Source of the DNA: Pseudosulfitobacter pseudonitzschiae
GTDB lineage: Bacteria; Pseudomonadota; Alphaproteobacteria; Rhodobacterales; Rhodobacteraceae
Reading direction: 5' to 3'
DNA length: 64,000 nucleotides
Assembly (NCBI RefSeq): GCF_002222635.1
Contig: NZ_CP022420.1
Span: 62,001 to 126,000 of the forward strand
Numbering within the stretch: the first letter of the stretch is position 1; each line of letters begins with the position of its first letter. Positions 14,557 to 63,862 of this stretch are shown piece by piece. Made by a program: the position numbers and the translations under genes. The notes below the pieces were generated by a model that searched no databases, had not been told where the DNA came from, and worked only from the letters and a program-made list of their open reading frames with translations.

Positions 14557-15754
14557 GTCTGTGGGTCCTTGGGTCGGGAATAAACATATAGGTAGCGATG
14601 GCACAGCAAAGACACAGGGCCATGACAGCAAAAGACCACCAGCCGCCGTAGGTTTGTGTGGTCCATGCAAAAGCAAAAGGGGCGGAGGCGTTGATCCCCA
14701 TTTGCACGAAGGAGATCCACCCCAGTCGTGCACCGTAACCTTTGGTACCGAATAGCGCCAAAGGCAGGGTACCGCGCGCGATGGTTTTGATCCCGTCGCC
14801 CATTCCGTAAAGTGCGGCCGCAAGCAGTAGTCCAGTTAACGTAAATCCGAAGATCAACAGGACGACAAAGCCAGAAAACATCAGGCCGAGGCTAAGCGCA
14901 TAGGTCACCAATGGGTACATGCTGCGACTGACCAACATCTCAAAAAACCGGCCCACGGTTTTGAACGGGCCGATGACGGCACCGGCGAAGGCTGCCATGG
15001 CTGCCGTATGGCCCAAGTCCTGAACATTGGTCACCCAAAGTGTCATAACAGCGCCCATCAGGTAGCCTGAAAAAACGAAAGAAACGACCATCCACAACAT
15101 TGCCTGCTTGCGCAGGTGCCCGGTCAGTTCGGGCCAGTCCGGCGCATTGTCAGGTTTGGGTGCATCGGCCTCGCGTTCAGGCCCGCGCAAGACAAAGAAG
15201 TGGATCGGTGTGCATATCAGCAAGGCACTGAAGCCGAGGATCACCCATGTTGTTTCCCAACCGTACCAATTAAACAGCGCGAGAGTCAGCGGCCAGAAAA
15301 TAGTCGAGGCGACCCCGCCAAACAGCGTGATGACAGAAATCGAGCGTTGCGGCGGAACGCCTAGATCCAGTCGCGCCACACTGGCAAAGGCTACATTATA
15401 CAGCACGAACATGCCCGCGCCTTCGGCCACCAGGATCAGCACAAATAACCCGATCCGCCCTTCAATTTGGCTCATCGCCATCAGCGCAAGGCTGGCCACG
15501 ATCGAGCCCAGTGTCATCACCCAGCGACCGCCACAGTGGTCCACCAGTTTTCCGGCAATGGGTGAGACCAGGCCGCCAAAGAAAAGGCCCAGCGACAGAA
15601 TACCGAATACCTCTGACAGGGTCAGTCCAAGATCCCTTGCCATTTCTGGTAAGAGCACCGCATAGGCGTACATCAACGTCCCGTACCCCATGATCTGGGT
15701 TACGCCGAGTCCAATGGCAGGAATATAATCGCGGTTCGGTCTTGGCAGGTTCAT
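14516..15754 (-). CDS. MFS transporter
   Basis: 412 residues with about 12 hydrophobic segments and the MFS loop 2-3 pattern GLVSPIAGKLVDHCGGRWVM. It resembles the oxalate/formate-antiporter-like and OFA-like branches in general form, but the substrate is not recognisable. Its ATG (15754) overlaps the phnM-like stop by 4 bp, so translation is coupled. In this operon it could import an organic substrate or export a product made by the methyltransferase and amidohydrolase. Confidence 0.8.
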   Translation of the reverse strand: MNLPRPNRDYIPAIGLGVTQIMGYGTLMYAYAVLLPEMARDLGLTLSEVFGILSLGLFFGGLVSPIAGKLVDHCGGRWVMTLGSIVASLALMAMSQIEGRIGLFVLILVAEGAGMFVLYNVAFASVARLDLGVPPQRSISVITLFGGVASTIFWPLTLALFNWYGWETTWVILGFSALLICTPIHFFVLRGPEREADAPKPDNAPDWPELTGHLRKQAMLWMVVSFVFSGYLMGAVMTLWVTNVQDLGHTAAMAAFAGAVIGPFKTVGRFFEMLVSRSMYPLVTYALSLGLMFSGFVVLLIFGFTLTGLLLAAALYGMGDGIKTIARGTLPLALFGTKGYGARLGWISFVQMGINASAPFAFAWTTQTYGGWWSFAVMALCLCCAIATYMFIPDPRTHRHDPAQNRRLPENI

Positions 15755-19227: not shown

Positions 19228-20089
19228 CGATGAAATCGTCGAACTGAGGGTATCCCGCATTCGAATACATCGAGCGGACGTAGTCATATGCGCTGTCTTC
19301 AATCGCAACGAGGTCCATGCCGACATATTTGTCGTTTTCTTCGTGGGCCGTGATGCCTGCGATGACCTGCGCCTTGTTCCCAAGGACCGCGTCTCGCAGT
19401 GCTTCGGCAGCCTTGGTTGGCACATGTGCACCCACCATGATCATGTCATTGGGCAGGTCGCCCGAGCGCGCAATCATCTTGTAAAAACCGTAAGGCAGCT
19501 CCGTTTGGCCATTGCGGACGCCGATGAAAGTGCCTGCATTCATGCCAAGCGCGTCGATATCGCCGTTGTTCAACGCCTCAAAGGCGATGTTGCGCGAGGT
19601 GTGGATTTTCTCAATGTCATTAACCGGATCGACGCCGTAGTCTGCGAGTACCTGCATCGGGCAAAGCATGTTTGAAGTCGAACCGATATCGCCAAATGCG
19701 ACTGATTTGCCTACCAGATCAGCAGGTACGTTGATGCCGCTGTCAGCACGCACGATAATGGCACAGTGATAATCGGGGCGACCGAGGCCGATCAGCGGCG
19801 TGGCATTGGTCAGCTTGTTGAAAACCACATATTCTGCAGGTCCAGAGACTACAAAATCCACGGTCTCACCGCGCAGCGCCTCGGCTGCAGCCGTGCGCGA
19901 GTTTACGGCAAAGAATTCGAATGTGTCGCCGGTGGCCACTTCAAGCGCCTCCTTGAAGGGACCCCATTCCAGTTGCAGGCGTTCCATGCCTTCGACATCT
20001 GTGACGGCAAGTTTCCAGATTTCTGCTGTCGCTGCAAAGGCAGACACAGCAGCAAGGCTTACACCCAGCAAAAGAGATTTCAGTTTCAT
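19220..20089 (-). CDS. phnD: PhnD-like periplasmic binding protein
   Basis: 289 residues. Signal peptide MKLKSLLLGVSLAAVSAFAATA; then EIWKLAVTDVEGMERLQLEWGPFKEALE; ligand motifs VDFVVSGPAEYVVFNKL and VAFGDIGSTSNMLCPMQVLADYG, which provide the Ser/Thr oxyanion-binding loop of the PhnD/PtxB family. It differs strongly from ptxB (291 residues, different pocket sequence). It is the first gene of the seven-gene leftward operon. Its GAGGG ribosome-binding site lies within the target duplication of the IS903-group element inserted at 20103. Confidence 0.87.
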   Translation of the reverse strand: MKLKSLLLGVSLAAVSAFAATAEIWKLAVTDVEGMERLQLEWGPFKEALEVATGDTFEFFAVNSRTAAAEALRGETVDFVVSGPAEYVVFNKLTNATPLIGLGRPDYHCAIIVRADSGINVPADLVGKSVAFGDIGSTSNMLCPMQVLADYGVDPVNDIEKIHTSRNIAFEALNNGDIDALGMNAGTFIGVRNGQTELPYGFYKMIARSGDLPNDMIMVGAHVPTKAAEALRDAVLGNKAQVIAGITAHEENDKYVGMDLVAIEDSAYDYVRSMYSNAGYPQFDDFIGD

Positions 20090-29090: not shown

Positions 29091-29889
29091 CACCCGCATT
29101 GCCGCAATTATTGTCGCGGGCACGCTCATGGCGGCACACCCGCCCCCAGCCTTCGCTCAGGGCGTGCCAGTGATCGATGGATCGAACCTCGCGCAGAATA
29201 TCGAGCAGCTGCAGGCTGCGCTGCGCGATGCGGAAAACCAGCTCCAGCAAATCGAGGAATTGCGCACCCAGATCGAGCGCCTCACTGATATTCAGGGCCT
29301 TCTTGATGACGTCCTGGGTTCAATTACCGGCCTGAATGAAATCGCAGCCCTTTACAACGATGTGGAGGACCTGCGCGCTCGCGCCCGGAAGATCACCGAT
29401 CTATCGGGTTTCATGGACAACCTGTCGCTCGGGGATTTTGACAGCCTGCTGGACGATCTGCTCGATGGCGACGTCACCATGGGAGAGCGCCGCGCCGCTG
29501 ATGCCATGCGCGAGACGATGGCCAGTGCGGGGTTCACCTCGGAAAAACTCACCGAGCTGAACGACGCCGGGAACCCGCAAGGCGCGGCCATTGCCGATCT
29601 GGCGGCTGCCAATGCCATGGTCATCGGGCAAGCACAGATTTCCTACGAGGAAGCCGCCCAGAGCATCGAGCGTATCGATGGGCTGGTGGAAGCGATTGGC
29701 GATCAGGAAACGCTCAAGGAATCGATCGATCTCAACACGCGTATGGCCGCGGAGACGAATTTCATGTTGGGCCAAATGTGGCGCCTGAATGCCGCCCAAG
29801 GCTTGGCGCAAGGTCAAAATGGCATCGATTTCGCGGCCGAGCAGGCCCGCACACGCTCCTTCTTTGATTTTTCCGGCGCTGAGGACTGA
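29080..29889 (+). CDS. virB5: VirB5/TrbJ-like minor pilin component
   Basis: 269 residues: signal peptide (MRADTRIAAIIVAGTLMAAH), mature start QGVPVIDGSNLAQNIEQLQAALRDAENQLQQIEEL, then long amphipathic helices with predicted coiled coils and NFMLGQMWRLNAAQGLAQGQNG near the end. This is the all-helical VirB5/TrbJ form; these proteins cap the pilus. It overlaps the preceding gene by 11 bp. Confidence 0.82.
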   Translation: MRADTRIAAIIVAGTLMAAHPPPAFAQGVPVIDGSNLAQNIEQLQAALRDAENQLQQIEELRTQIERLTDIQGLLDDVLGSITGLNEIAALYNDVEDLRARARKITDLSGFMDNLSLGDFDSLLDDLLDGDVTMGERRAADAMRETMASAGFTSEKLTELNDAGNPQGAAIADLAAANAMVIGQAQISYEEAAQSIERIDGLVEAIGDQETLKESIDLNTRMAAETNFMLGQMWRLNAAQGLAQGQNGIDFAAEQARTRSFFDFSGAED

Positions 29890-46761: not shown

Positions 46762-48636
46762 CTAGAGGCCGTAATCGCCACTGGTATCGTCCCGGTCGCG
46801 CCCCCGCTCCTCGGCGCGCTCGAAAGCCTCGATCCGGGTCCGGTAGGTGGCGGCTGGTTCGCTGTCGCGCCCGGTAATGTCATCACCCGCATCCACTGCG
46901 GCGATGGCCTTTAGCTCCGAGAACACGGCTTGTCGCAGACCGGGGTCTTCGATGCGGTCCATGAGCGGATCGATCCGGCCAGCGGCCAGCTGATCCATAT
47001 CCCCGTCGCGCAGGTCTTGCCGCACGTCGGAGATCAGCTTGTCCAGCGTGGCGATGTCGGCAAGGCGACTGCACTGCCCCGCGTCAAGAATATCCTGACG
47101 CGCCAGATCCGCCAAAAGATCACGATCCATGTGTAGCCCCGCAAAAACATCACGCGCGCGCGCCTGCAGGTCGCGTTCGAGCCCAAGCCAGTCCGAGCGC
47201 TCCTGGGCGTCCACTGGGCGTGAGGCTTCGAGTTGCGCCTCGCTGCGATGGGTTGCGGTGAAACGGGCAGCGACTTCTTCGATGCTGCTGCCCGCCTCCT
47301 CGAATCGTGCCTCCATCGGTGCCAGAACGCGCGCCAATTCCGCTCTGAAACGACCCAGTGCAGCATCGGCCTCAGCGACGAGCGGATTGCCCTCCTCTGC
47401 TGCCCGTGCGGCCAGCCCCGCAATCCCCTGAACTCTGTAGGGATCGCGCTCGGGCGACACCGATGAAGAATGATCCGCAAGAAAGTCGCGGCCCAGAAGC
47501 CTGCCCATTTCGCGGGCCTGCCCCGCAAAGAGCTGTTCCAGTTCGACCTTTTCGGCACCGGGAGCCATGTCCTGAATGGCGCTCCACGCGGTGTCGGCTT
47601 CCGCTTGCAATGTCTCGCGGGCGGCGATCAGACGACCGATCACATCCGCTCCGGCAGCGGGGATATCAACCCCTTCGGCAAACCCTTCTTTCACCGGCAT
47701 TCCTTTCATCAAGTTGGTGGCGGCAAGCTCTGCGCCCTCCGCGATGCGCCCCATCCATCCATCCGGAGGGGTGTCGGCCTCCAGGCCCATCCCCGCAAGT
47801 TGCGCCAGCTGCCGATACCCCTCGGCGTGTCTGCGTATCTCGGCCTCTCGCAGAGCGCGGCTTTCAGGATCCAGCGGGGCAACCACTGGCTCCCGTCCCT
47901 CCTTGCGGGCCGCCTGCAAATCAGTGTCCCGCGGGGCGTTTTCCATGATGCCTCGCGACAGACGGGAAGAGGCGTTCAGTACCAGCCCGTGCTCGCCCGC
48001 GATCTGCGCATGCAGCTCGCGCATCATGTCATAGCTGATCTCGGAATGGCGGCTGATCGAGAGGAACTTGCCGTCCTCCATCCCGACCTTGTCGACAAGA
48101 ACATGGGCATGCACATGGTCTGTGTTGCAATGGAGGGCCGCCACATACCGATATCGATCCCGGTAATCCCCGCCGAACACCTCCTGCGCCCATTCGCGCG
48201 AGATGGCTTCCGCCAATTCCGCCTCGGTTCCCTTGGGAAAAGACAGGATGATGTGATCGGTATGACCCCGTTTCGGCGCCCCGCACCAGGAAGCACTCCA
48301 ATCGGCAATGACATTTTCCATGCCGCGCTCGCCAAAGGCACGATCGATGCCGATCTGGTTCGACCAGGCTGCGACCCGCGCCTCGTCGCGCAGAATGTAT
48401 TTCATCTGTCGGCGTAACTCTTTTGGCGAATGACACCCGCCCGTGCCGACCCGCTTCACCACGCTTTGCGGCACCCGCAGCGCGTTCCAGGACATTACCG
48501 CAACTGCCCCGCCGGACGTGCCACGCCGACGGCCCGACGATACGCGCGCTTCGCCTGCCATGGCTGCAGACCGCCGCCCCACATGAGGCAGAATCTCGCC
48601 CAATACCGCCTGCTGGAGGGTGCGTGTTTCAGCCAT
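46762..48636 (-). CDS. VirD2-like relaxase (MobA/relaxase family)
   Basis: 624 residues from ATG 48636, which overlaps the mobC stop by 8 bp. The N-terminal relaxase domain has KELRRQMKYILR, DHIILSFPKGTEAELAEA and the metal-binding three-His motif HCNTDHVHAHVLVDK (about 168-182); an early Tyr (YILR or nearby) is the candidate nicking residue. The C-terminal 400 residues are a long charged helical region, perhaps for protein contacts. It nicks oriT and pilots the strand to the recipient. Confidence 0.9.
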   Translation of the reverse strand: MAETRTLQQAVLGEILPHVGRRSAAMAGEARVSSGRRRGTSGGAVAVMSWNALRVPQSVVKRVGTGGCHSPKELRRQMKYILRDEARVAAWSNQIGIDRAFGERGMENVIADWSASWCGAPKRGHTDHIILSFPKGTEAELAEAISREWAQEVFGGDYRDRYRYVAALHCNTDHVHAHVLVDKVGMEDGKFLSISRHSEISYDMMRELHAQIAGEHGLVLNASSRLSRGIMENAPRDTDLQAARKEGREPVVAPLDPESRALREAEIRRHAEGYRQLAQLAGMGLEADTPPDGWMGRIAEGAELAATNLMKGMPVKEGFAEGVDIPAAGADVIGRLIAARETLQAEADTAWSAIQDMAPGAEKVELEQLFAGQAREMGRLLGRDFLADHSSSVSPERDPYRVQGIAGLAARAAEEGNPLVAEADAALGRFRAELARVLAPMEARFEEAGSSIEEVAARFTATHRSEAQLEASRPVDAQERSDWLGLERDLQARARDVFAGLHMDRDLLADLARQDILDAGQCSRLADIATLDKLISDVRQDLRDGDMDQLAAGRIDPLMDRIEDPGLRQAVFSELKAIAAVDAGDDITGRDSEPAATYRTRIEAFERAEERGRDRDDTSGDYGL

Positions 48637-49177
48637 CGCGCTGCCCCTCCCCAACGTCCCGAAAATCGGACACCCGGACGAAGGACCCGCGCAGCGAGGC
48701 CGCGCGCAAAGCCTGCACGGCCCGGGCAACCTCTTCGGCCCGATCCGCAAGCCGACCGACCATTGCCGCGTCGCGCGCGTTCCACCGCAGCTTGCCCGCA
48801 TGGGCAAGCTTCAGCATCTGGACAAGATTGCGCGCCAAGGCATTGAGCTGATTGGCCGACGCCTTGAGCGCCGTGACCTCGTCCCGGCGAAACGCGACAA
48901 TGCCGGATGAGAGACGGATCATGTGCCGGAGCAAACCCGACGTGGTCATGCCAGTCTCAGCCACAAGCGCCTCGAATGCTTCGGCCTCACGGGCGGACAC
49001 CCGAACCTGCAGCACGCGGCCCTTTGTGGTTCGATCCGTCACCACACCGCGCGCCCGCACGCGGGCGACAGTGGGTCGGGAGCAGCCAACACGCACGGCG
49101 ATCTCCCCATCGCCAAGCCCTTGAGCGGCAAGCCGGAGAACCTCCTGTCGGGCTATGGTGGAGATGCGTTTCGACAT
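48629..49177 (-). CDS. mobC: MobC-like relaxosome accessory protein
   Basis: 182 residues from ATG 49177. N-terminal HTH (ARQEVLRLAAQGLGDGEIAVRVGCSRPTVARVRARG), then a MobC-like part with ribbon-helix-helix character (LQVRVSAREAEAFEALVAETGMTTSGLLRHMIRL) and the NQLNALARNLVQMLKLA motif common to MobC proteins. It binds oriT and assists the relaxase. A palindrome at 49193-49230 just upstream is a likely autoregulatory site. Confidence 0.82.
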   Translation of the reverse strand: MSKRISTIARQEVLRLAAQGLGDGEIAVRVGCSRPTVARVRARGVVTDRTTKGRVLQVRVSAREAEAFEALVAETGMTTSGLLRHMIRLSSGIVAFRRDEVTALKASANQLNALARNLVQMLKLAHAGKLRWNARDAAMVGRLADRAEEVARAVQALRAASLRGSFVRVSDFRDVGEGQRDG

Positions 49178-49192
49178 GGGCGGCAAGATTTA

Positions 49193-49230
49193 TCATTAGA
49201 TAGTTTTTGTAAACACGAAAACTCTAATGA
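49193..49230. promoter_or_regulatory. Palindromic operator candidate upstream of mobC
   Basis: TCATTAGA-ta-GTTTT and its inverse AAAAC-TCTAATGA form near-perfect 13-bp arms around an AT-rich centre, 16 bp before the mobC start. This suits binding by the HTH domain of MobC or by the nearby VirC2-like protein. Confidence 0.55.
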
Positions 49231-49274
49231 GTCGCCGCACAAGTTTTGTCATACACAATACCGTTCCTGTCAAC

Positions 49275-49372
49275 GTCCCTTCGGTCCGTTGTCGCACCTT
49301 CGGTGATCAGCAGGCAGGGTCTTGGCCATGCCTGCTGTAAACCCCACGCGACAACGAACAGACCGAAGGGAC
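49275..49372. other. oriT: Putative origin of transfer
   Basis: This is a nested inverted repeat in the gap between the leftward mob operon and the rightward parA/virC2 genes. Outer arms GTCCCTTCGGTC + CGTTGTCGC (49275-49295) pair with the inverse at 49348-49372, interrupted by four extra bases on the right. Inner perfect arms CAGCAGGCA (49308-49316) / TGCCTGCTG (49329-49337) form a hairpin. Position beside mobC and the relaxase and the palindromic form are typical of oriT. No nick sequence was identified. A further 8-bp palindrome GATCCGGG/CCCGGATC is at 49392-49414. The rest of 49373-49854 shows nothing coding. Confidence 0.65.
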
Positions 49373-49817
49373 ACCGCCTCCCCCGCGCCGCGATCCGGGA
49401 CCCCGGCCCGGATCCTGAACAGGCGCGGGAATGACGTCGGCGCAGCCGACACGATATCCCTTCATTGGCGTTGAATGCTCAAAGGGGTTCTCCCGGAAGG
49501 AGAAGAAGACCTTGTGGGATTGGAACGCCTGCGCAGCACCGTGCGTATTACGTCGGCGCTGATACGGATAGTCGATGGTCAGGTGACCCGACACCACGAA
49601 GGCTGATGGCAGCATTGGGAAATTGCCACAACGACGCGATGGCGAAAAGGATGGACGCTGCAATCACGGTCGGCGTGAGTGACCTGCTGACCAATTGACC
49701 GAACGCGTACGCAGATGATCGCCAAAACAGCACATCGCCTCAGCAGATACACATCTGTCTGACCCAAAGGTTGAACGTCTGTATCGCGCAAGGTCTGGAC
49801 GCCATCCCGAGGCATCG

Positions 49818-49845
49818 CCATAACGGCACAAAATATACGTTATGG
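49818..49845. promoter_or_regulatory. Inverted repeat operator upstream of the parA-like gene
   Basis: CCATAACG (49818-49825) and CGTTATGG (49838-49845) flank a 12-base AT-rich spacer and overlap the GGAG ribosome-binding site (49844-49847) of the ParA-like gene. It is a good candidate for autoregulation by the downstream ribbon-helix-helix protein. Confidence 0.55.
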
Positions 49846-49854
49846 AGACATTGA

Positions 49855-50646
49855 ATGCTTGTTGTGACGGCCATCTCCGCGAAGGGCGGTTCGGGAAAGA
49901 CAACTCTCATACAGATGCTTGCGTCCGCCATGCTGGCACGCGGCCGCCGTGTGCATGTCATGGATGCGGATGCTGACAAGCAGATCCTCGAATGGGAATC
50001 AAAAAGCGCGCGCGCCGACTTCGGTGATCTGCCACGCCTTCCATGGCCCACGGGCTTGACCGTGGCCGATGCCCCCGAGACCGTTGAAGGCCTTTACCAC
50101 GCGCTGGACAGCTTTGAGGCTGAAGGTGTTGATCTGGTTCTGATCGACACCCGCCCCGGCGAGCACCCCGACACCGAAACACTGGCGCTGGCCTGCGACA
50201 TGATCCTGGTGCCGGCCGTGCCGGTACAATCGGATTTCGTGGCGGCCCTGAAAACCCTGACATGGGCAATGCGCATGATCGAGACCCTCGGGCCGGATGA
50301 CCCCGCCCCGCTGTTTTCCGCGGTATTGATGAACGCGGACAAACGCGCGATCGATTTCGTGACCGCAGGCGATGACTTTGAGCGTGATGCGGCAAGACGC
50401 AGGGTTCACCGGCAGGACCTTGAGGTCTTCGAGGTGATTTCAACCCTGCCGCTCCTACCAACGCCGGTGCCCCATCTCACTGCGATCCAGCGCATGCCGC
50501 TGACCGGGCCGCTGGGATACGTGCGGGACATTTATGAACAGGATCTTCGTCATCGGTTGCAGGCGGGGCATCTTTCCTCAGCCCTGACACTGTGCGGCGA
50601 TGTCCTTTGCGACATCGAGGCCATGGTGGATGCTGCCAATGGCTAG
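49855..50646 (+). CDS. ParA/VirC1-like ATPase
   Basis: 263 residues. Deviant Walker A KGGSGKTT (residues 10-17) with the signature Lys, HVMDADADKQILEW, Walker B-like LVLIDTRPGEHPDTETLALACD. This is a ParA/MinD-type ATPase. Its place next to oriT, and the following VirC2-like gene, suggest a VirC1 role (recruiting the relaxosome to the pole) rather than plasmid partition, since no ParB is adjacent. GGAG lies seven bases before the ATG. Confidence 0.85.
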   Translation: MLVVTAISAKGGSGKTTLIQMLASAMLARGRRVHVMDADADKQILEWESKSARADFGDLPRLPWPTGLTVADAPETVEGLYHALDSFEAEGVDLVLIDTRPGEHPDTETLALACDMILVPAVPVQSDFVAALKTLTWAMRMIETLGPDDPAPLFSAVLMNADKRAIDFVTAGDDFERDAARRRVHRQDLEVFEVISTLPLLPTPVPHLTAIQRMPLTGPLGYVRDIYEQDLRHRLQAGHLSSALTLCGDVLCDIEAMVDAANG

Positions 50647-56798: not shown

Positions 56799-57056
56799 TC
56801 ATGCATAACCCCGCCGCTTCTTTATCGCGGCAAGTTTCATCAGCGCGGTGACAGCGCGCCCTTCATCTGGATGCTGCTCAATCATCATCTGCCCGCGCGC
56901 GCCAATGCGGCCCCATTCGCGCACCAAGCTGGCGCCCCCAAAGAGATCGGGCTGAATGCTCATGCGGTAAAACCGCCGCATGTTGCAGGCTGGATCGATC
57001 CGCCGCATCTGCAGGTCGGTCGGGAACACCTCAAGTTGAGCGACAGAGTGAGACAT
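56799..57056 (-). CDS. WGR-domain protein
   Basis: 85 residues from ATG 57056. It is essentially one WGR domain: LEVFPTDLQMRRIDPACNMRRFYRMSIQPDLFGGASLVREWGRIGARGQMMIEQHPDEGRAVTALMKLA, with the namesake WGRIG. WGR domains bind nucleic acid. Stand-alone copies occur on many Rhizobiales/Rhodobacterales plasmids near DUF2493 genes, as here. An upstream ATG at 57083 is possible. Confidence 0.85.
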   Translation of the reverse strand: MSHSVAQLEVFPTDLQMRRIDPACNMRRFYRMSIQPDLFGGASLVREWGRIGARGQMMIEQHPDEGRAVTALMKLAAIKKRRGYA

Positions 57057-57089
57057 ATCGTGATCCAGCAGGCTTTCTTCCAAAATATC

Positions 57090-57151
57090 AGGTGGAAGCC
57101 TGCTCTTCCACCTCGATTTCCCCGCGAGGGGAAAAGGGGGCTCACGCCCCC
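57090..57151. terminator. Three tandem perfect hairpins downstream of the DUF2493 gene
   Basis: From right to left (gene direction): GGGGGC-tcac-GCCCCC (57136-57151) spans the stop codon and is followed leftward by TTTTCCCC. Next come TTTCCCC-gcga-GGGGAAA (57117-57134) and AGGTGGAAG / CTTCCACCT (57090-57113). The first has terminator form. Three adjacent perfect palindromes in 62 bases is unusual. Confidence 0.6.
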
Positions 57152-58074
57152 TTCTCGAACTTCATGACCGGGATGCCCAGCTTCTTGGCCTTGTCGGCGA
57201 GGTTCTCCTGGATGCCGGTGCCCGGGAAGACGAGAACACCCACCGGCAGCACCTCCAGCATGGCGTCGTTGCGCTTGAAGGGGGCAGCCTTGGCGTGCTT
57301 GGTCCAGTCGGGTTTGAAGGCGACCTGCGTCACGCCCCGAGCCTCGGCCCATTTGGCGGCAATGAGTTCTGCGCCCTTCGGGCTGCCACCGTGCAGAAGA
57401 ACCATGTCGGGATATTTGGTCCGGACCTGATCGAGCTTGCCCCAGATCAGGCGGTGATCGTTGAAGTCGGTCCCGCCAGTGAGGGCGACCTTGGGGCCTG
57501 CGGGCAGCATCACCTCGGTTTCCGCGCGGCGCTTGGCGGCCAGGAAGTCGCGGCTGTCGATCAGGGCGGCGGTCATGTGCTGGCGGTTCACCATCGAGCC
57601 GGTGCGGGGGCGCCAGGTGGATCCCGTGTGATGGACGAACTCGGTGGCTGCATGATCGCGCATCATGTCCATGCAGTTGCGCCGTTCGATCAGGGTCAGG
57701 CCTTCGGCCGTCAGGCGCTCGAGTTCGGTGGATTTCACCTCGGAGCCATCCTGCTCGCGCTGAAGGCGGCGCTGCGCCTGCTCGTTCTCATCGAGCGACC
57801 GCTCAACCCTCGCCGTGGCACGGTGGAAGAGGTTGACCTGGCCCCAGAGCACCTCTTCGAGGTCGGGTTCCATGCGGGTGTCTTCCAGGGTCGCGACGAG
57901 GGCATCGAAGATGTCGGCGACTGCGACCGCGAGGCGCTGCCCATCGGGCATCGGGCGCGGATCGGGCTCATCAAAGGGGCGGTAGCCATAAAGCTGCAGC
58001 TCGTCGAGCGCAAGGGCGGTCTGGGATGCGGTGTGGGCGGGTTCATACGTGTCGTCGTGAGTGTGGATCGTCAT
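57142..58074 (-). CDS. DUF2493 (SLOG-like) domain protein
   Basis: 310 residues. The N-terminal part is helical (DEPDPRPMPDGQRLAVAVADIFDAL). The C-terminal DUF2493/YspA-like Rossmann domain has VALTGGTDFNDHRLIWGKLDQVRTKYPDMVLLHGGSPKGAELIAAKWAEARGV, then RNDAMLEVLPVGVLVFPGTG. These are SLOG-superfamily nucleotide-binding motifs (GG...D, GGSPKGAE, PG-G). Its role on plasmids is unknown. SLOG proteins can sense or process nucleotides. Confidence 0.88.
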   Translation of the reverse strand: MTIHTHDDTYEPAHTASQTALALDELQLYGYRPFDEPDPRPMPDGQRLAVAVADIFDALVATLEDTRMEPDLEEVLWGQVNLFHRATARVERSLDENEQAQRRLQREQDGSEVKSTELERLTAEGLTLIERRNCMDMMRDHAATEFVHHTGSTWRPRTGSMVNRQHMTAALIDSRDFLAAKRRAETEVMLPAGPKVALTGGTDFNDHRLIWGKLDQVRTKYPDMVLLHGGSPKGAELIAAKWAEARGVTQVAFKPDWTKHAKAAPFKRNDAMLEVLPVGVLVFPGTGIQENLADKAKKLGIPVMKFEKGA

Positions 58075-58149
58075 CTGTTTCTTGCCTCCGGGCCTGTCTC
58101 ATCCGCGCGACAACCCGCGCGGCCTTCATGGGCTGCGAAAGCTGTCACT

Positions 58150-58292
58150 GGGGACGCCCCCTCACCCCGCCTTCGGGGCCGGAACGCATGTGGAGGAGGG
58201 CGGCAGGCAAGCTATTTGTTTCGCGATGCAAAGCGGGGGCTCGTCCCCCGCGGCGGAAATAGCTTGCCTGCCGCCCTTGATGGGGCGTCCCC
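58150..58292. repeat. Three-tier nested palindrome
   Basis: Outer 11-bp arms GGGGACGCCCC (58150-58160) / GGGGCGTCCCC (58282-58292) surround perfect 20-bp arms (58198-58217 and 58257-58276, beginning GGGCGGCAGGC). Within these lies GCGGGGG-ctcgt-CCCCCGC. The whole 143 bp could extrude as one cruciform. It fills the gap between the DUF2493 start and the toprim gene end. The remaining bases of 58075-58444 show nothing coding. Confidence 0.85.
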
Positions 58293-58444
58293 TTTGACGG
58301 CCGCCTGCCCATCTCTTGAAGGCCGCTCGGGTGTCGGGTGGATGAGATTTACCCGGGAAGAGGCAAAGGTGATGATCCAAACCCGCGACAGGACTGCAGG
58401 ACCCCTACTCCCTCAACCCCTGACCACCCTCTGCGCGATGCGGC

Positions 58445-59476
58445 TCAGCCCAACAGGCGTTGGCGATCCTCAAGCCCGATCTGCCCTGCCAGATGCTGGC
58501 GCAGCGCCTCTTTGCCGGTCGCCCGGAGATCATCGTTGAAATCCCCGAGTTGTGGCTCGAGCACATGGCACCCAATCCCGACCTCTGTGGCTCTGGCGCT
58601 CAACCTCTCTGCCGCGCGTTGCCCGGCCGGATCGCGGTCGATCGCGATGTAGAGGCGCTGCAATCCCTCTGGCAGCAGGACGGCCCCGAGGTGACCCGAC
58701 GACAGCGCCGCCCAGACGGGAAGGCCCGGCACTGCCTCGAACAGGGACAGCATGGTCTCAATGCCCTCGCCGATCACGAGGATGTCGTCATGCGGGGTCA
58801 GCCTGACAGCATTGCCGAGGAGGTGACCCATGGCACGCCGCTGCGTTTTGACCGCCGCCTTGCCCTTGCCGTCGTGCGCCAGCCAAGTCCGATGCACACC
58901 CTGCAGGGCCCCTGCCCCATCGGTGACCGCAGCGATCAATGCTGGTCGGGGAATGCTCTTGGTCTGGCCCTCATCCCGATGCCAGCACGTCGGGTGGAAG
59001 CGAAGGGCGCTCATCGTGCCGCCTTGGGTGATGCCCCGGGCGCGAAGGTAAGTGTCGGCAAGCGTGCCTGCGACTGGCATAGAGGCTGCAAAGAGCCGCG
59101 CCGCCGCGGCTCGTGTGCCACCGGGGGCTTTGGGCTTCTTCGGCACTGGCGTATTCGGGAGGACCGGCTGGGGACGGCCAAGATGCGCCCGGGCCTCAGC
59201 CAGAAGGTCGGGAAAGCGGGAGATCCCGGTTCGCTCGCGGATGATGTCGAGGAGATCGCCATGCAGTCCGACAGCCGCGTCCTGCCATTTGCCACGGGCG
59301 CCCGGTCCTGATGTGGGTCCAGTCAGCCGCACGAAGAGCGACCGGCCGGGGTTGTTCTGCAAATCGCCCACGATCCAGTAGGACCCTTCCCGCCGTCCGG
59401 CGGGAAGGTAGGCGCGACACACGCTCTCTGCGTTCTCCGCCAGAGCGCGGATCACATCTTCAGTCTCGGAATACAT
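58445..59476 (-). CDS. Toprim-domain primase-like protein (DUF7146 type)
   Basis: 343 residues. The N-terminus (SYWIVGDLQNNPGRSLFVRLTG) resembles the zinc-less front domain of plasmid primases. The toprim domain has ILVIGEGIETMLSLFEAVPGLPVWAALSSGHL (Glu) and LYIAIDRDPAGQRAAERLSARA (DxD). Such proteins act with the strawberry-notch helicase encoded next to them on many alphaproteobacterial plasmids, perhaps in plasmid DNA processing. It lies 3 bp after the strawberry-notch gene in the same operon. Confidence 0.85.
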   Translation of the reverse strand: MYSETEDVIRALAENAESVCRAYLPAGRREGSYWIVGDLQNNPGRSLFVRLTGPTSGPGARGKWQDAAVGLHGDLLDIIRERTGISRFPDLLAEARAHLGRPQPVLPNTPVPKKPKAPGGTRAAAARLFAASMPVAGTLADTYLRARGITQGGTMSALRFHPTCWHRDEGQTKSIPRPALIAAVTDGAGALQGVHRTWLAHDGKGKAAVKTQRRAMGHLLGNAVRLTPHDDILVIGEGIETMLSLFEAVPGLPVWAALSSGHLGAVLLPEGLQRLYIAIDRDPAGQRAAERLSARATEVGIGCHVLEPQLGDFNDDLRATGKEALRQHLAGQIGLEDRQRLLG

Positions 59477-59479
59477 GGC

Positions 59480-62400
59480 TCAGCACCCTCCACGCGCATG
59501 TAGTCCTGTCACGGGACAACGTGCAAGCAGACGATCAAGCACTGCGATGCCGCTCGAGTCCGCTGGGCAGAAGAGCCGCAGCTTCCAGGCGATGATCTCC
59601 GAGAAGAACCCATCTGCCTTGAGCCGGTCCTTGGCGGCACCCAAAAAGCCCGACAGCTCGATCCGGTTGACGCCCATAACGCGCGAGCGGTGCAGCTCCA
59701 TCCCTTCGGCCAAGCGCACGACCGTCTTGCCTTCCAGAACAAGGGCATGGACCTGCGCCGCCGTGAGCTTCGGAGCATCGGCGGCAAGTGTGGTCGCGAC
59801 CCACGACGGCGAAACGCGGCGACCGATGATGCGCTGACCGTCATCGGTCTGCAGCCGGTAGACGCGGGTTTCATCCTGGGGGAGCTGCTTCCAGATCGGC
59901 AGCAAGAGGCCCGCCACGATATGCAGGGTGGTTTCCGAGAACTCCGGCACTTCAGCCAGTTCTGCCCTCCAGGCTTCATTGAAGGCCGCGCGGTCGGCTT
60001 CGAGCCAATGGGTGTCGTCCATGATCTTGGCCGGAACCGTGCTCGCCTCCAGCGGGCGGATCAGCCGCAGGCGGGGTTCGATGGTGCCATCGTCCAGCAT
60101 CAGGCTGGTCGCGGGCACCTGCACGGCAGCCCGGCCCGAGCGGCTGTTGACCAGTAGCCGCGCCTTTGGGTCATCGAGCCAGTCGAGCGCATCCGCCAGT
60201 GACAGCGGTGTATTGCGCTGCTTTTGCGCGATGCTCAGCAGCTGGGTTTCCGCGCCGGAGCCGGGATGGGTGTAAATCACCCGCGCATCTGTGACGCGGA
60301 AGCTCTCGGCGCGCAGCGTCTCAAGCCCGAGGTCGTAGACCCCGGCGGCGATAGCGCCCTCGATCCGTTGGTCGAGGAGTTCCTCAAAGGCCGCGAAGAG
60401 TACAGCCTGCATGTCGATTGTGAGCGCCAGCAGGCGATTGAGGAAGGTGGTGATCGGCGGCAGGTCATCCTTCAGACCGTTGTCATCAGTCAGGCTGAGG
60501 CCGGTCGCATCCTCAAACGCCCCGAGCGAGCAGCCCGCAACATCACCGCGATAGAGGCGGCGGTAAAGCTGGCGCAGAGCGTCGCGGGCATAGGGGGACT
60601 CGAGATTGTCCTCGGGCCGGAACAGCCCCTGCCCGCCGGTTTGACGCTGGCCGCGCGTGATCGCCCCGAGCGTGTCGAGGCGACGCGCGATGGTGCTGAG
60701 GAAGCGTTTCTCTGCTTTCACATCGGTAGCAACGGGCCGGAACAGCGGTGGTTGCGCCTGGTTGGTGCGGTTGGTGCGGCCCAGTCCCTGAATGGCCGCA
60801 TCGGCCTTCCAGCCCGGTTCCAGGAGGTAGTGGACCCGCAGGCGCTGGTTCTTCGCCCCGAGATCGGCGTGATAGCTGCGCCCCGTGCCGCCGGCATCCG
60901 AGAAGATCAGGATGCGCTTCTGGTCATCCATGAAGGCGGCGGTTTCCGCGAGGTTGGCAGAGCCCGCCCGGCTTTCCACGACCAGGCGGGCGGCAGCACC
61001 CTCGCCCTTCCTCACAATGCGCCGCGAGCGTCCCGTGACCTCGGCCACGAGATCGGTGCCGAAGCGCTGGACGATCTGGTCAAGCGCGCCGGGCACAGGC
61101 GGCAGGCTTGCCAGATGCTCGATCAGCGCATCGCGCCTGCGCGCAGCTTCGCGACATTCCACCGGCTGGCCGTCGCGCGTGACAGGCCGCGAGGAGAGGT
61201 TGCCTTCGCTATCGGTGAAGGGCTCGTAGAGCTGCACCGGAAAGGAATGCTGCAGATAATCCAGGCAAGCCTCTCTTGGCGTGATGTCCACCCGCACATC
61301 GTTCCACTCGTCCGTGGGGATGTCCGACAGGCGGCGCTCCATCAGCGCCTCGCCCGTCGAGACAATCTGGATGACGGCCGCGTGGTCTGCGGCGAGATCG
61401 GCGTCGATGGCGGCGATCAGCGTGGGAGTTTTCATCGAGGTCAGCAGATGGCCGAAGAACCGTTGCTTGGCGGACTCGAAAGCCGAGCGGGCGGCGGACT
61501 TGGCCTGGCGGTTCAGCGTACCGCCGGATTCGCCAGTAATGTTGGCCGCTTCCAGCGCCGCGGACAAGTTCCGATGTATGACTCCGAAGGCGAGCGCATA
61601 TGCATCATAGATCCCGCGCTGCTCCGGCGTCAGCGCATGTTCCAGCATCTCGTATTCGACGCCGTCATAGGACAGCGAGCGCGCCGTGTAGAGGCCAAGC
61701 GACCGCAGATCGCGGGCCAGGACCTCCATCGCGGCAACGCCGCCAGCTTCGATAGCTTGCACAAATTCCGCCCGCGTCGAAAACGGAAAGTCTTCGCCCC
61801 CCCAAAGCCCAAGCCGCTGCGTATAGGCGAGGTTATGGACCGAGGTCGCCCCCGTGGCCGAAACATAGACCATGCGGGCATTCGGAAGTTTGTGCTGCAG
61901 GCGCAGACCCGCCCTGCCCTGCTGCGAGGCCGTGACATCGCCGCGCTCACCCTTGCTTCCTGCGGCATTCGCCATGGCATGGCTTTCGTCAAACAGGATC
62001 ACCCCGTCAAAATCCGCCCCAAGCCAGTCGACGATCTGATCGACGCGGGATTTCCTGGCGCCCCGCTCCTCGGAGCGCAGCGTGGCATAGGTGGTGAAGA
62101 GGATGCCTTCGGTCAGCGGGATGTCTTTGCCTTGCGCGAAGCGCGACAGCGGCGTCACCAGCAAGCGTTCCTGTCCGAGTGCGGACCAGTCGCGCTGCGC
62201 ATCCTCCAGCAGCTTGTCGCTTTTGGAGATCCAGAGCGCTTTGCGCCGACCCTGCGCCCAGTTGTCGAGCAGGATGCCGGCGGACTGGCGGCCCTTGCCC
62301 GCCCCGGTGCCATCGCCAAGGAAGAAGCCGCGGCGGAAACGGACGGCGTCAGCGGCATCGTCCGGCGCGGCCGAGACCATGTCGCCGGTCTCATCGACGG

Positions 62401-63862
62401 TCCAAGACCCCGCGAGATAAGCGCCATGCGCCTCGCCCGCGTAGATCACAGTCTCAAGCTGCGCGTCGGACAGAAGGCCATCGCGCAGGATGGCGGCTGG
62501 AAGCTTGGGCCGGTAGCTGGGTTTTGGGGGCGCGACCGAAGCCATGGCCGCAGATTGCACAAGCTTGGTCGGGTGCGGTTCCGCTCCGGGAATGTCGATC
62601 GCCTGCAGACGGAAGGTCTCATAAATAGCATCCGACAGGCGCGCGCTGGCCCCGTCCTCGGTTGCATCGCGCAGGGTATAGGCGAGGTCTGCGGCCTCGA
62701 TCTGCACCGCGGTGTTGGTGGGGGCTGTTGCAGGCGTGGCGCGCGTCGAGCTGATGCCTGTGCGCGTGGTGCGGGCAGGATTTCCCGGGAAGGGGGAAGT
62801 GGGGCCCTGCCCGGCTGGTGCGACCTGCGCCAGTTCGAGGCGCGGGGGGACATGGGTAGTGATCAGCGACAGCAGGCTGGCGACATCAGGCGAAATCGGG
62901 CGCGCCAGATCGGCTGTGATGCCGCCCGCCTCGCCACCGAGGCATTTGTCGAAGACCGAAATCCGCGTCTCGAAGCTGGTGCCGTGCTTGGCGAAGGCCG
63001 CACCCGACACAGCACCCGTAAAGACCAGATGCGCGGTCTGGGTCAGGCGACCGAAGGTCTCAGCCCAGGCGGGCGCATCGGGCGCGAAACTGGCACCGGT
63101 GATGGCGACCAACCGTCCGCCGGGGACCAGACGCGCAAGCGCCGAGCGCAGATGCCGGGCTGTCGCCTCGGTGGTGCGAGCGTCGACATTGGCCACCGCC
63201 GAGAAGGGCGGGTTCATCAGGATGACGCTCGGGCGCAGGTCCGCGTCGAGATGATCGTCGATCTGGGCTGCGTCGAAGCCCGTGACCGGAAGCCCCGGAA
63301 ACAGGCGGCGCAGAAGATCGGCGCGGGTGTCGGCCAACTCGTTCAGCGCGAGGCTGCCGCCCGCGATTTCTGCGAGGACCGCCAGAAGGCCCGTCCCAGC
63401 CGATGGCTCCAGCACCAGATCGCGCGCGGTGATCTGTGCTGCAGCCAGTGCCGCCAGCCCCATGGGCAGCGGTGTCGAGAATTGCTGGTACCGCTCCATC
63501 TCTTCAGACCGCCGCGTATGGGTCGGCAAAAGGCCGGACACCTTGGCAAGAATCGGCAGCAGAGCCGCGGGCGTGCCCGCCCGGGCCAGGAGCGCACGGC
63601 CGAACTTCCGCAGGAACAGGACCAGCGCTGCCTCGCCCGCTTCATAGGCCAGCTTCCAGTCCCAGGCGCCGGTCGCGTCAGAGCCGCCAAAGACGCGCTC
63701 CATCTCAACGCGCAGGCGAAGCGCGTCGATCTGGAAACCCTGCGCCAGATCGGGCTGCAGCGCCTCGGCCACGCTCAAGATCGCAGTGGCCGTATCGAGG
63801 GGCGGGATGGGGACAACAGGCGCAAGCGTGCGCTCGGACGCAAAAGGGGCGAGATGGGTCAT
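59480..63862 (-). CDS. Strawberry-notch-type helicase with N-terminal methyltransferase domain
   Basis: 1460 residues. The N-terminal part holds a class I methyltransferase domain (VLEPSAGTGLLAVLAEIAGG near 150 and VILMNPPFSAVANV near 210). The middle is the strawberry-notch SF2 helicase: Walker A FLGDGTGAGKGRQSAGILL (about 510-530), FDESHAMANAAG (about 625), YVSATGATS, and motif VI LGRTNRTNQ (about 1030). The C-terminal 400 residues form the SNO regulatory/helical domain. Fusion of SAM-binding and helicase domains is the rule for these very large plasmid proteins; their biochemical role is not established. It starts at ATG 63862. Confidence 0.9.
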   Translation of the reverse strand: MTHLAPFASERTLAPVVPIPPLDTATAILSVAEALQPDLAQGFQIDALRLRVEMERVFGGSDATGAWDWKLAYEAGEAALVLFLRKFGRALLARAGTPAALLPILAKVSGLLPTHTRRSEEMERYQQFSTPLPMGLAALAAAQITARDLVLEPSAGTGLLAVLAEIAGGSLALNELADTRADLLRRLFPGLPVTGFDAAQIDDHLDADLRPSVILMNPPFSAVANVDARTTEATARHLRSALARLVPGGRLVAITGASFAPDAPAWAETFGRLTQTAHLVFTGAVSGAAFAKHGTSFETRISVFDKCLGGEAGGITADLARPISPDVASLLSLITTHVPPRLELAQVAPAGQGPTSPFPGNPARTTRTGISSTRATPATAPTNTAVQIEAADLAYTLRDATEDGASARLSDAIYETFRLQAIDIPGAEPHPTKLVQSAAMASVAPPKPSYRPKLPAAILRDGLLSDAQLETVIYAGEAHGAYLAGSWTVDETGDMVSAAPDDAADAVRFRRGFFLGDGTGAGKGRQSAGILLDNWAQGRRKALWISKSDKLLEDAQRDWSALGQERLLVTPLSRFAQGKDIPLTEGILFTTYATLRSEERGARKSRVDQIVDWLGADFDGVILFDESHAMANAAGSKGERGDVTASQQGRAGLRLQHKLPNARMVYVSATGATSVHNLAYTQRLGLWGGEDFPFSTRAEFVQAIEAGGVAAMEVLARDLRSLGLYTARSLSYDGVEYEMLEHALTPEQRGIYDAYALAFGVIHRNLSAALEAANITGESGGTLNRQAKSAARSAFESAKQRFFGHLLTSMKTPTLIAAIDADLAADHAAVIQIVSTGEALMERRLSDIPTDEWNDVRVDITPREACLDYLQHSFPVQLYEPFTDSEGNLSSRPVTRDGQPVECREAARRRDALIEHLASLPPVPGALDQIVQRFGTDLVAEVTGRSRRIVRKGEGAAARLVVESRAGSANLAETAAFMDDQKRILIFSDAGGTGRSYHADLGAKNQRLRVHYLLEPGWKADAAIQGLGRTNRTNQAQPPLFRPVATDVKAEKRFLSTIARRLDTLGAITRGQRQTGGQGLFRPEDNLESPYARDALRQLYRRLYRGDVAGCSLGAFEDATGLSLTDDNGLKDDLPPITTFLNRLLALTIDMQAVLFAAFEELLDQRIEGAIAAGVYDLGLETLRAESFRVTDARVIYTHPGSGAETQLLSIAQKQRNTPLSLADALDWLDDPKARLLVNSRSGRAAVQVPATSLMLDDGTIEPRLRLIRPLEASTVPAKIMDDTHWLEADRAAFNEAWRAELAEVPEFSETTLHIVAGLLLPIWKQLPQDETRVYRLQTDDGQRIIGRRVSPSWVATTLAADAPKLTAAQVHALVLEGKTVVRLAEGMELHRSRVMGVNRIELSGFLGAAKDRLKADGFFSEIIAWKLRLFCPADSSGIAVLDRLLARCPVTGLHARGGC

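Follow-up and report, generated by a model that had tools for sequence, protein, structure and literature searches.

What purpose is served by a large palindrome that separates two plasmid genes in Pseudosulfitobacter pseudonitzschiae? The DNA analysed (the window, 64,000 nucleotides in all) belongs to a 142-kb contig (C6) of a 5.1-Mb genome. A first-pass annotation had reported three nested pairs of perfect arms, of 11, 20 and 7 bp, and had offered a miniature transposable element, a recombination or replication site, or a strong bidirectional terminator as explanations.

Structure of the palindrome

The palindrome at positions 58150-58292 is real. Its 11-bp and 7-bp arms were as first described; the longest perfect arm is 21 bp and not 20 bp. 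An imperfect outermost arm pair (30 nt, 77%) widens the palindrome to approximately 220 bp (Table 1). Folded as a single strand, it reached -110.9 kcal/mol compared with -73.5 ± 4.0 kcal/mol for 200 dinucleotide shuffles (z = -9.4), none of which was as stable. Both flanking genes lie on the minus strand, so the palindrome occupies the 5' region of the gene at 57142-58074 and not a convergent gap. A translated product was considered and rejected: the plus-strand ORF at 57295-58539 runs antisense over the DUF2493 gene, and the stem sequence varies freely.

Table 1. Coordinates of the element, its conserved parts and the surrounding genes in the window.
Feature	Position	Strand	Basis or remark
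Whole element	58113..58332	+ (predicted transferred strand; template for the downstream gene)	Outer arms 58113-58142/58303-58332
11-bp arm, left, perfect	58150..58160	+	Pairs with 58282-58292; read from sequence
11-bp arm, right, perfect	58282..58292	+	Read from sequence
Stem P1, left arm, 21 bp, perfect	58197..58217	+	Sequence and covariation in 66 aligned sequences
Stem P1, right arm, 21 bp	58257..58277	+	Sequence and covariation
Apical hairpin P2, left arm, 7 bp, perfect	58233..58239	+	Sequence, covariation
Apical hairpin P2, right arm, 7 bp, perfect	58245..58251	+	Sequence, covariation
Conserved box TTTCCGYCG	58251..58259	read on -	Aligned copies
Conserved box CTTTRCATCGCG	58222..58233	-	Its R covaries with the Y of the TTTCCGYCG box
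Core matched by covariance model R1	58194..58283	-	81.4 bits; window copy is among the 66 model-building sequences
Gene served, DUF2493/YspA SLOG-family protein	57142..58074	-	
Upstream gene, DUF7146 + Toprim (primase-like) protein	58445..59476	-	
Strawberry-notch-type helicase protein	59480..63862	-	Same module
Relaxase (MobA/VirD2 type)	46762..48807	-	
MobC/NikA-like relaxosome protein	48629..49186	-	
Likely oriT region, 668 bp	49187..49854		Gap between the MobC-like gene and the divergent VirC1-like gene
VirC1-like gene	49855-50646	+	Divergent from the MobC-like gene

Conservation and spread

The element was matched by BLAST in 39 plasmid records, over at least 80% of its length in 36 of them, which removes the concern over an assembly artefact. 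It was 98.8% identical to three Pseudosulfitobacter/Sulfitobacter plasmids; a 701-bp stretch including flanking coding DNA was 93.3-93.9% identical. Comparison with related plasmids, as the first-pass annotation had advised, confirmed conservation, the aligned spacers holding invariant boxes between variable, complementary arms. The copies elsewhere in the genome that it had thought worth seeking were not found by sequence similarity, which returned a single copy (a second row was its own inverted self-match). Two diverged extra copies in the same genome were picked up by the structural model alone. Both are on a second replicon, contig C7: one (L207:5905-5987) precedes a DUF736 gene near MobC/relaxase, and the other (L206:5241-5323) precedes a DUF736 gene that appears to have been split by a transposase.

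A two-box pattern matched at least 120 stretches in the genome collection. Among the matches listed, nearly all were from Alphaproteobacteria, and three of those outside the class (L032, L054, L061) lacked the stem. Of the 385 genomes sampled from the class, 25 contained matches to covariance model R1. Model R2 gave matches in 34 of 398 genomes of the phylum, its scores being rough because all 48 rows of A5 went into the model, mirror matches and weak ones among them. Four of these 34 genomes were outside the class; in three of them the element precedes DUF736, and in the fourth it is 5' of an ArdC-like gene. Copies are found mainly in Alphaproteobacteria, on plasmids as well as chromosomal contigs. 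Phage records contained no match to the element; the five pattern matches in viral contigs comprised one true element (L149) and four without the stem. A weak match in the window at 29515-29597 on the minus strand (R1, 19.3 bits; R2, 31 bits), where the apparent transfer genes run on the other strand, is probably due to chance.

Loci in which the pattern had no visible stem (L032, L054, L061, L147, L148, L150, L151) were dropped before counting. L036 (no proper 3' arm) and L023 (interrupted) were left out of some counts. Duplicates of sites already counted (L001, L002, L014, L015) were removed, and L003, L010 and L016 were also removed from the count of 166 copies. For this count, 38 of 63 model rows were typed; the rest were already counted, were reverse-strand self-matches, or scored below 40 bits (for example window 29515, L212 and L207:4943).

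Fold and covariation

Read in gene sense, the element consists of GCAAY, the long stem P1, TTTCCGYCG, the apical hairpin P2 of free sequence, CTTTRCATCGCGA, and the return of P1. In the 66 aligned sequences, 93.0% of cells were paired compared with 72.1% in shuffles. The covariation score was 0.455 compared with 0.122, with none of 500 shuffles as high, and 14 of the 19 pairs showed two-sided change. The Y and R of the junction boxes also covary: in 137 loci they were C/G 124 times, T/A 13 times and never mixed; three model-found copies (L202, L203, L211) have G/C instead. A second subtype, with boxes CTTTCTTCC ... TCGCGARRCAAGAAA, was found with the model. Both outer arms, GGCCTTC...GAAGGCC, were seen in 40 of 69 representatives, with no case of GGCCTTC lacking its partner. 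The remark that such a length is rarely tolerated unless used has therefore held up, in that the stems are maintained by compensatory change. The window palindrome is one member of a large conserved family of structured elements.

Position and genes served

Upstream of DUF2493 (103 copies), DUF736 (47) or an ArdC anti-restriction gene (3), and in the orientation of that gene, lie 153 of the 166 copies. The spacing from element to served gene was 71-143 nt in 152 of the 166 and 276 nt in one. Gene families were assigned with Pfam for pattern loci and by similarity to annotated plasmid genes for the 38 model-found copies. Among the 137 pattern loci, the principal families downstream on the sense strand were DUF2493 in 91 (97 of 97 ORFs in sense) and DUF736 in 34 (34 of 34 ORFs in sense). 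Clusters of at least two copies within 40 kb numbered 28, in 24 genomes, and had a single orientation in 27. In the remaining cluster, the deviating copy (L263:8998) lies ahead of a DUF736 gene that is inverted too.

Three of the 13 other copies have DUF2493 farther off, with an annotated IS110 transposase intervening in L023. The L207 copy precedes a diverged DUF736, and the L206 copy the DUF736 gene that appears split. Three more, at L205:5881, L194:5245 and L195:5846, precede related ORFs of approximately 80 residues with a 'DMSWDEY' stretch, possibly a fourth gene family served. The last five (L050, L089, L194:4380, L195:5032, L200:4850) fit none of these descriptions. In L024 (Rhodobacter capsulatus pRCB133), the C-terminal part of the DUF2493 gene diverges from the family, and no element was detectable upstream by BLAST.

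A large inverted repeat in an intergenic gap is what a terminator, a miniature transposable element or an assembly artefact would present, and here such origins are scarcely credible given the fixed context (153 of 166), the compensatory change, the lack of a T tract and the 39 plasmid records. A search for intrinsic terminators (GC stem plus T run) gave no sites. The co-oriented flanking genes and the location of the element 5' of its gene also count against the bidirectional terminator first suggested. The fixed distance upstream of three gene families and the one copy by sequence in the genome count against the transposable element.

RNA or DNA

A position always in sense, 71-143 nt before the start codon in 152 of 166 copies, together with a multi-helix fold with invariant junction bases, would suit a leader RNA. 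The transcript of the toprim-DUF2493 operon would fold on the sense strand and regulate translation or termination of the downstream gene, in the manner of a riboswitch or through a bound protein. In a sense RNA, G-U pairs should outnumber A-C pairs; the opposite was seen, which argues against it. In the aligned columns read on the sense strand there were 14 G-U and 35 A-C among 1247 cells, although half of the A-C excess lay in two columns, without which the counts become 13 and 11. The small SRP RNA of the same class, used as a control (29 of 30 loci after a length filter; its consensus fold was weak), gave 50 G-U and 13 A-C among 400 cells. The G-U share was thus 1.1% compared with 12.5%, or approximately tenfold rarer. 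The 39 wider members had 3 G-U and 22 A-C. Of 435 positions in P2, 417 were Watson-Crick, 1 was G-U, 3 were A-C and 14 were other. Rfam 15 (radC, RF01754, included) gave a single chance-level match for 57000-60000 at E up to 5 (13.7 bits, cut-off 218), and at the gathering score only rRNA and tRNA were matched in five relatives. A sense-strand leader RNA is judged rather unlikely.

The wobble pattern fits a folded DNA strand, and any wobble would lie on the template strand. As it points to the window plus strand, where RNA or DNA could explain it, a structured antisense RNA made from that strand might instead control the downstream gene, or plasmid functions in trans. This is considered very unlikely: P2 is almost without wobble of either kind, and a search for sigma-70-type sites returned none on either strand of 58000-58500, an E. 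coli-type -35/-10 pair being absent.

Two further measures were discarded. In 69 of 72 representatives the template strand had the better folding energy, but 5.34 of the 6.2 kcal/mol was also obtained with shuffled cores; this edge is mostly base composition and was not counted as evidence. G-U fractions based on RNAfold failed to tell SRP RNA apart from its complement, with at least one locus mis-centred, and were replaced by the aligned columns.

Leading-region layout and probable oriT

Eight replicons were mapped (six annotated plasmids, the window and contig C7), and in all eight the module containing the element is directed toward MobC/relaxase. Its genes are ParB-like, SSB, DUF932, RadC, strawberry-notch helicase and Toprim, followed by the element and DUF2493/DUF736, the set varying by plasmid. 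In the six annotated plasmids the module is mostly co-oriented and faces a ParA/MobC-relaxase block. The order in the window is relaxase, MobC/NikA-like gene, 668-bp gap, VirC1-like gene and then the module; C7 has the same plan with its DUF736 copy. Judged by gene layout, the window gap is likely to be oriT. The relaxase is described as typically located in the lagging region (PMC11541004); with this layout, the module would be expected to be the first part to enter and to have the transferred strand as template.

Putative oriT positions were assigned in this way throughout, and NT26_p1, where the stretch examined contained no relaxase, was not counted. A strict nic-like consensus motif was found in four of the eight gaps, each time on the predicted transferred strand (summed chance expectation for both strands approximately 1.1). 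Three of the four read TATCCTGCCA, at a distance of 39-142 nt from the MobC side of the gap. The strict motif was absent from the other four gaps, including that of the window, where look-alikes only were seen by eye. The L156 counterpart of the window gap has a very strong fold (z = -9.0), and long inverted repeats are common to both.

Most neighbouring leading-region genes (SSB, DUF932, RadC) have no such element. A scan of the spacers before other genes in four plasmids gave a few with z below -4. L157 had them before ParB, hyp20107 and hyp24701, L156 had one before a RadC gene, and three plasmids had them in ParA-mobC gaps. Neither R1 nor R2 matched any of these. The L157 spacers at 14679-14838, before a ParB-type gene (z = -6.2), and at 19856-20015, before a hypothetical gene (z = -4.7), possibly represent other leading-region hairpin families.

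The same layout would serve a priming site (ssi) on the transferred strand, at which the plasmid Toprim protein or a host primase would start second-strand synthesis, and in the DUF2493 type the gene next upstream is usually DUF7146/Toprim (65 of 137 loci). Copies linked to DUF736 and ArdC do not adjoin a Toprim gene, however, and gene control agrees better with the constant distance to the start codon across three gene families and with the one copy that is inverted along with its gene. We regard a priming site as improbable.

Discussion

Compensatory change conserves the fold, the copies keep a fixed position and orientation, and the genes are laid out as in a leading region. From these observations we infer, with confidence evenly divided, that the element is a regulatory hairpin of conjugative plasmids and ICE-like elements, formed by single-stranded DNA of the transferred strand, which acts in the recipient as an early promoter for establishment genes. 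During conjugation the transferred strand, here the window plus strand, would enter the recipient with the leading region first. While still single-stranded, the element would fold to a fixed shape of outer arms, P1, conserved junction and apical P2. A polymerase or plasmid factor would recognise the junction and start RNA at or near the hairpin, and this RNA would run into the gene approximately 70-145 nt downstream (DUF2493, DUF736 or ArdC). Establishment and anti-restriction proteins could thus be produced ahead of second-strand synthesis; once the DNA became duplex, the hairpin would melt and the burst would end. The recombination or replication site of the first-pass annotation comes close in spirit, since an element of single-stranded conjugative DNA is favoured, though as a promoter.

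The nearest parallel is provided by Frpo1/Frpo2 (ssi) of plasmid F. Frpo stem-loops are described as lying upstream of leading genes, approximately 5 kb apart, and as needed for early expression in the recipient, with activity shut off when the strand becomes duplex (PMC9849209). Like them, the present element is a strong stem-loop upstream of early genes in what gene layout indicates is a leading region, and its copies recur at intervals of a few kb (PMC9849209; PMC11541004). As fold, position, repetition and layout match the logic of Frpo, a single-strand promoter is favoured. Unlike Frpo, the stem-loop does not rebuild canonical -35/-10 boxes. It also differs in serving DUF2493, DUF736 and ArdC, in its conserved junction boxes and in its occurrence mainly in Alphaproteobacteria.

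Integron attC sites are folded single DNA strands with few conserved positions and a variable terminal hairpin. The element resembles them in these respects; unlike attC sites, it was seen in no cassette arrays and is fixed upstream of three gene families. STAXI and radC are motifs of Weinberg et al. 2010, radC being a structured motif of Proteobacteria (RF01754) and STAXI a structured motif near SSB, integrase, topoisomerase and anti-restriction genes, for which the authors thought action as single-stranded DNA possible (PMC2864571). STAXI, unlike this element, is a repeated pseudoknot. No description of the element was found in the literature searched, mostly outside subscription journals, and the family is apparently undescribed. 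Single-stranded promoters are reported from a few enterobacterial plasmids, and a large survey sought relatives of Frpo and E. coli-type boxes (PMC11541004).

More tentatively, and with somewhat greater doubt than assent, the elements may form a class of single-stranded-DNA promoter peculiar to alphaproteobacterial conjugative plasmids and ICE-like elements, unrelated to Frpo, lacking the usual boxes and read by dedicated or non-standard machinery. DUF736, DUF2493 and ArdC would then be switched on soon after entry, which would mark them as establishment or anti-defence factors. ArdC is reported to require expression in the recipient (PMC7213743), and in one Mesorhizobium survey DUF736 genes were described on all ICEs, often duplicated (PMC8627217).

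Were the element a leader RNA instead, it would still represent a structured family absent from the catalogues, with members in 25 of the 385 genomes sampled from the class. If the promoter reading is true, the element is a sequence tag for leading regions, for the direction of transfer and for candidate anti-defence genes (DUF736, DUF2493 and the 'DMSWDEY' proteins). If it does the same job as Frpo, early expression from the incoming strand would have an independent and widespread solution in a class that includes the rhizobia.
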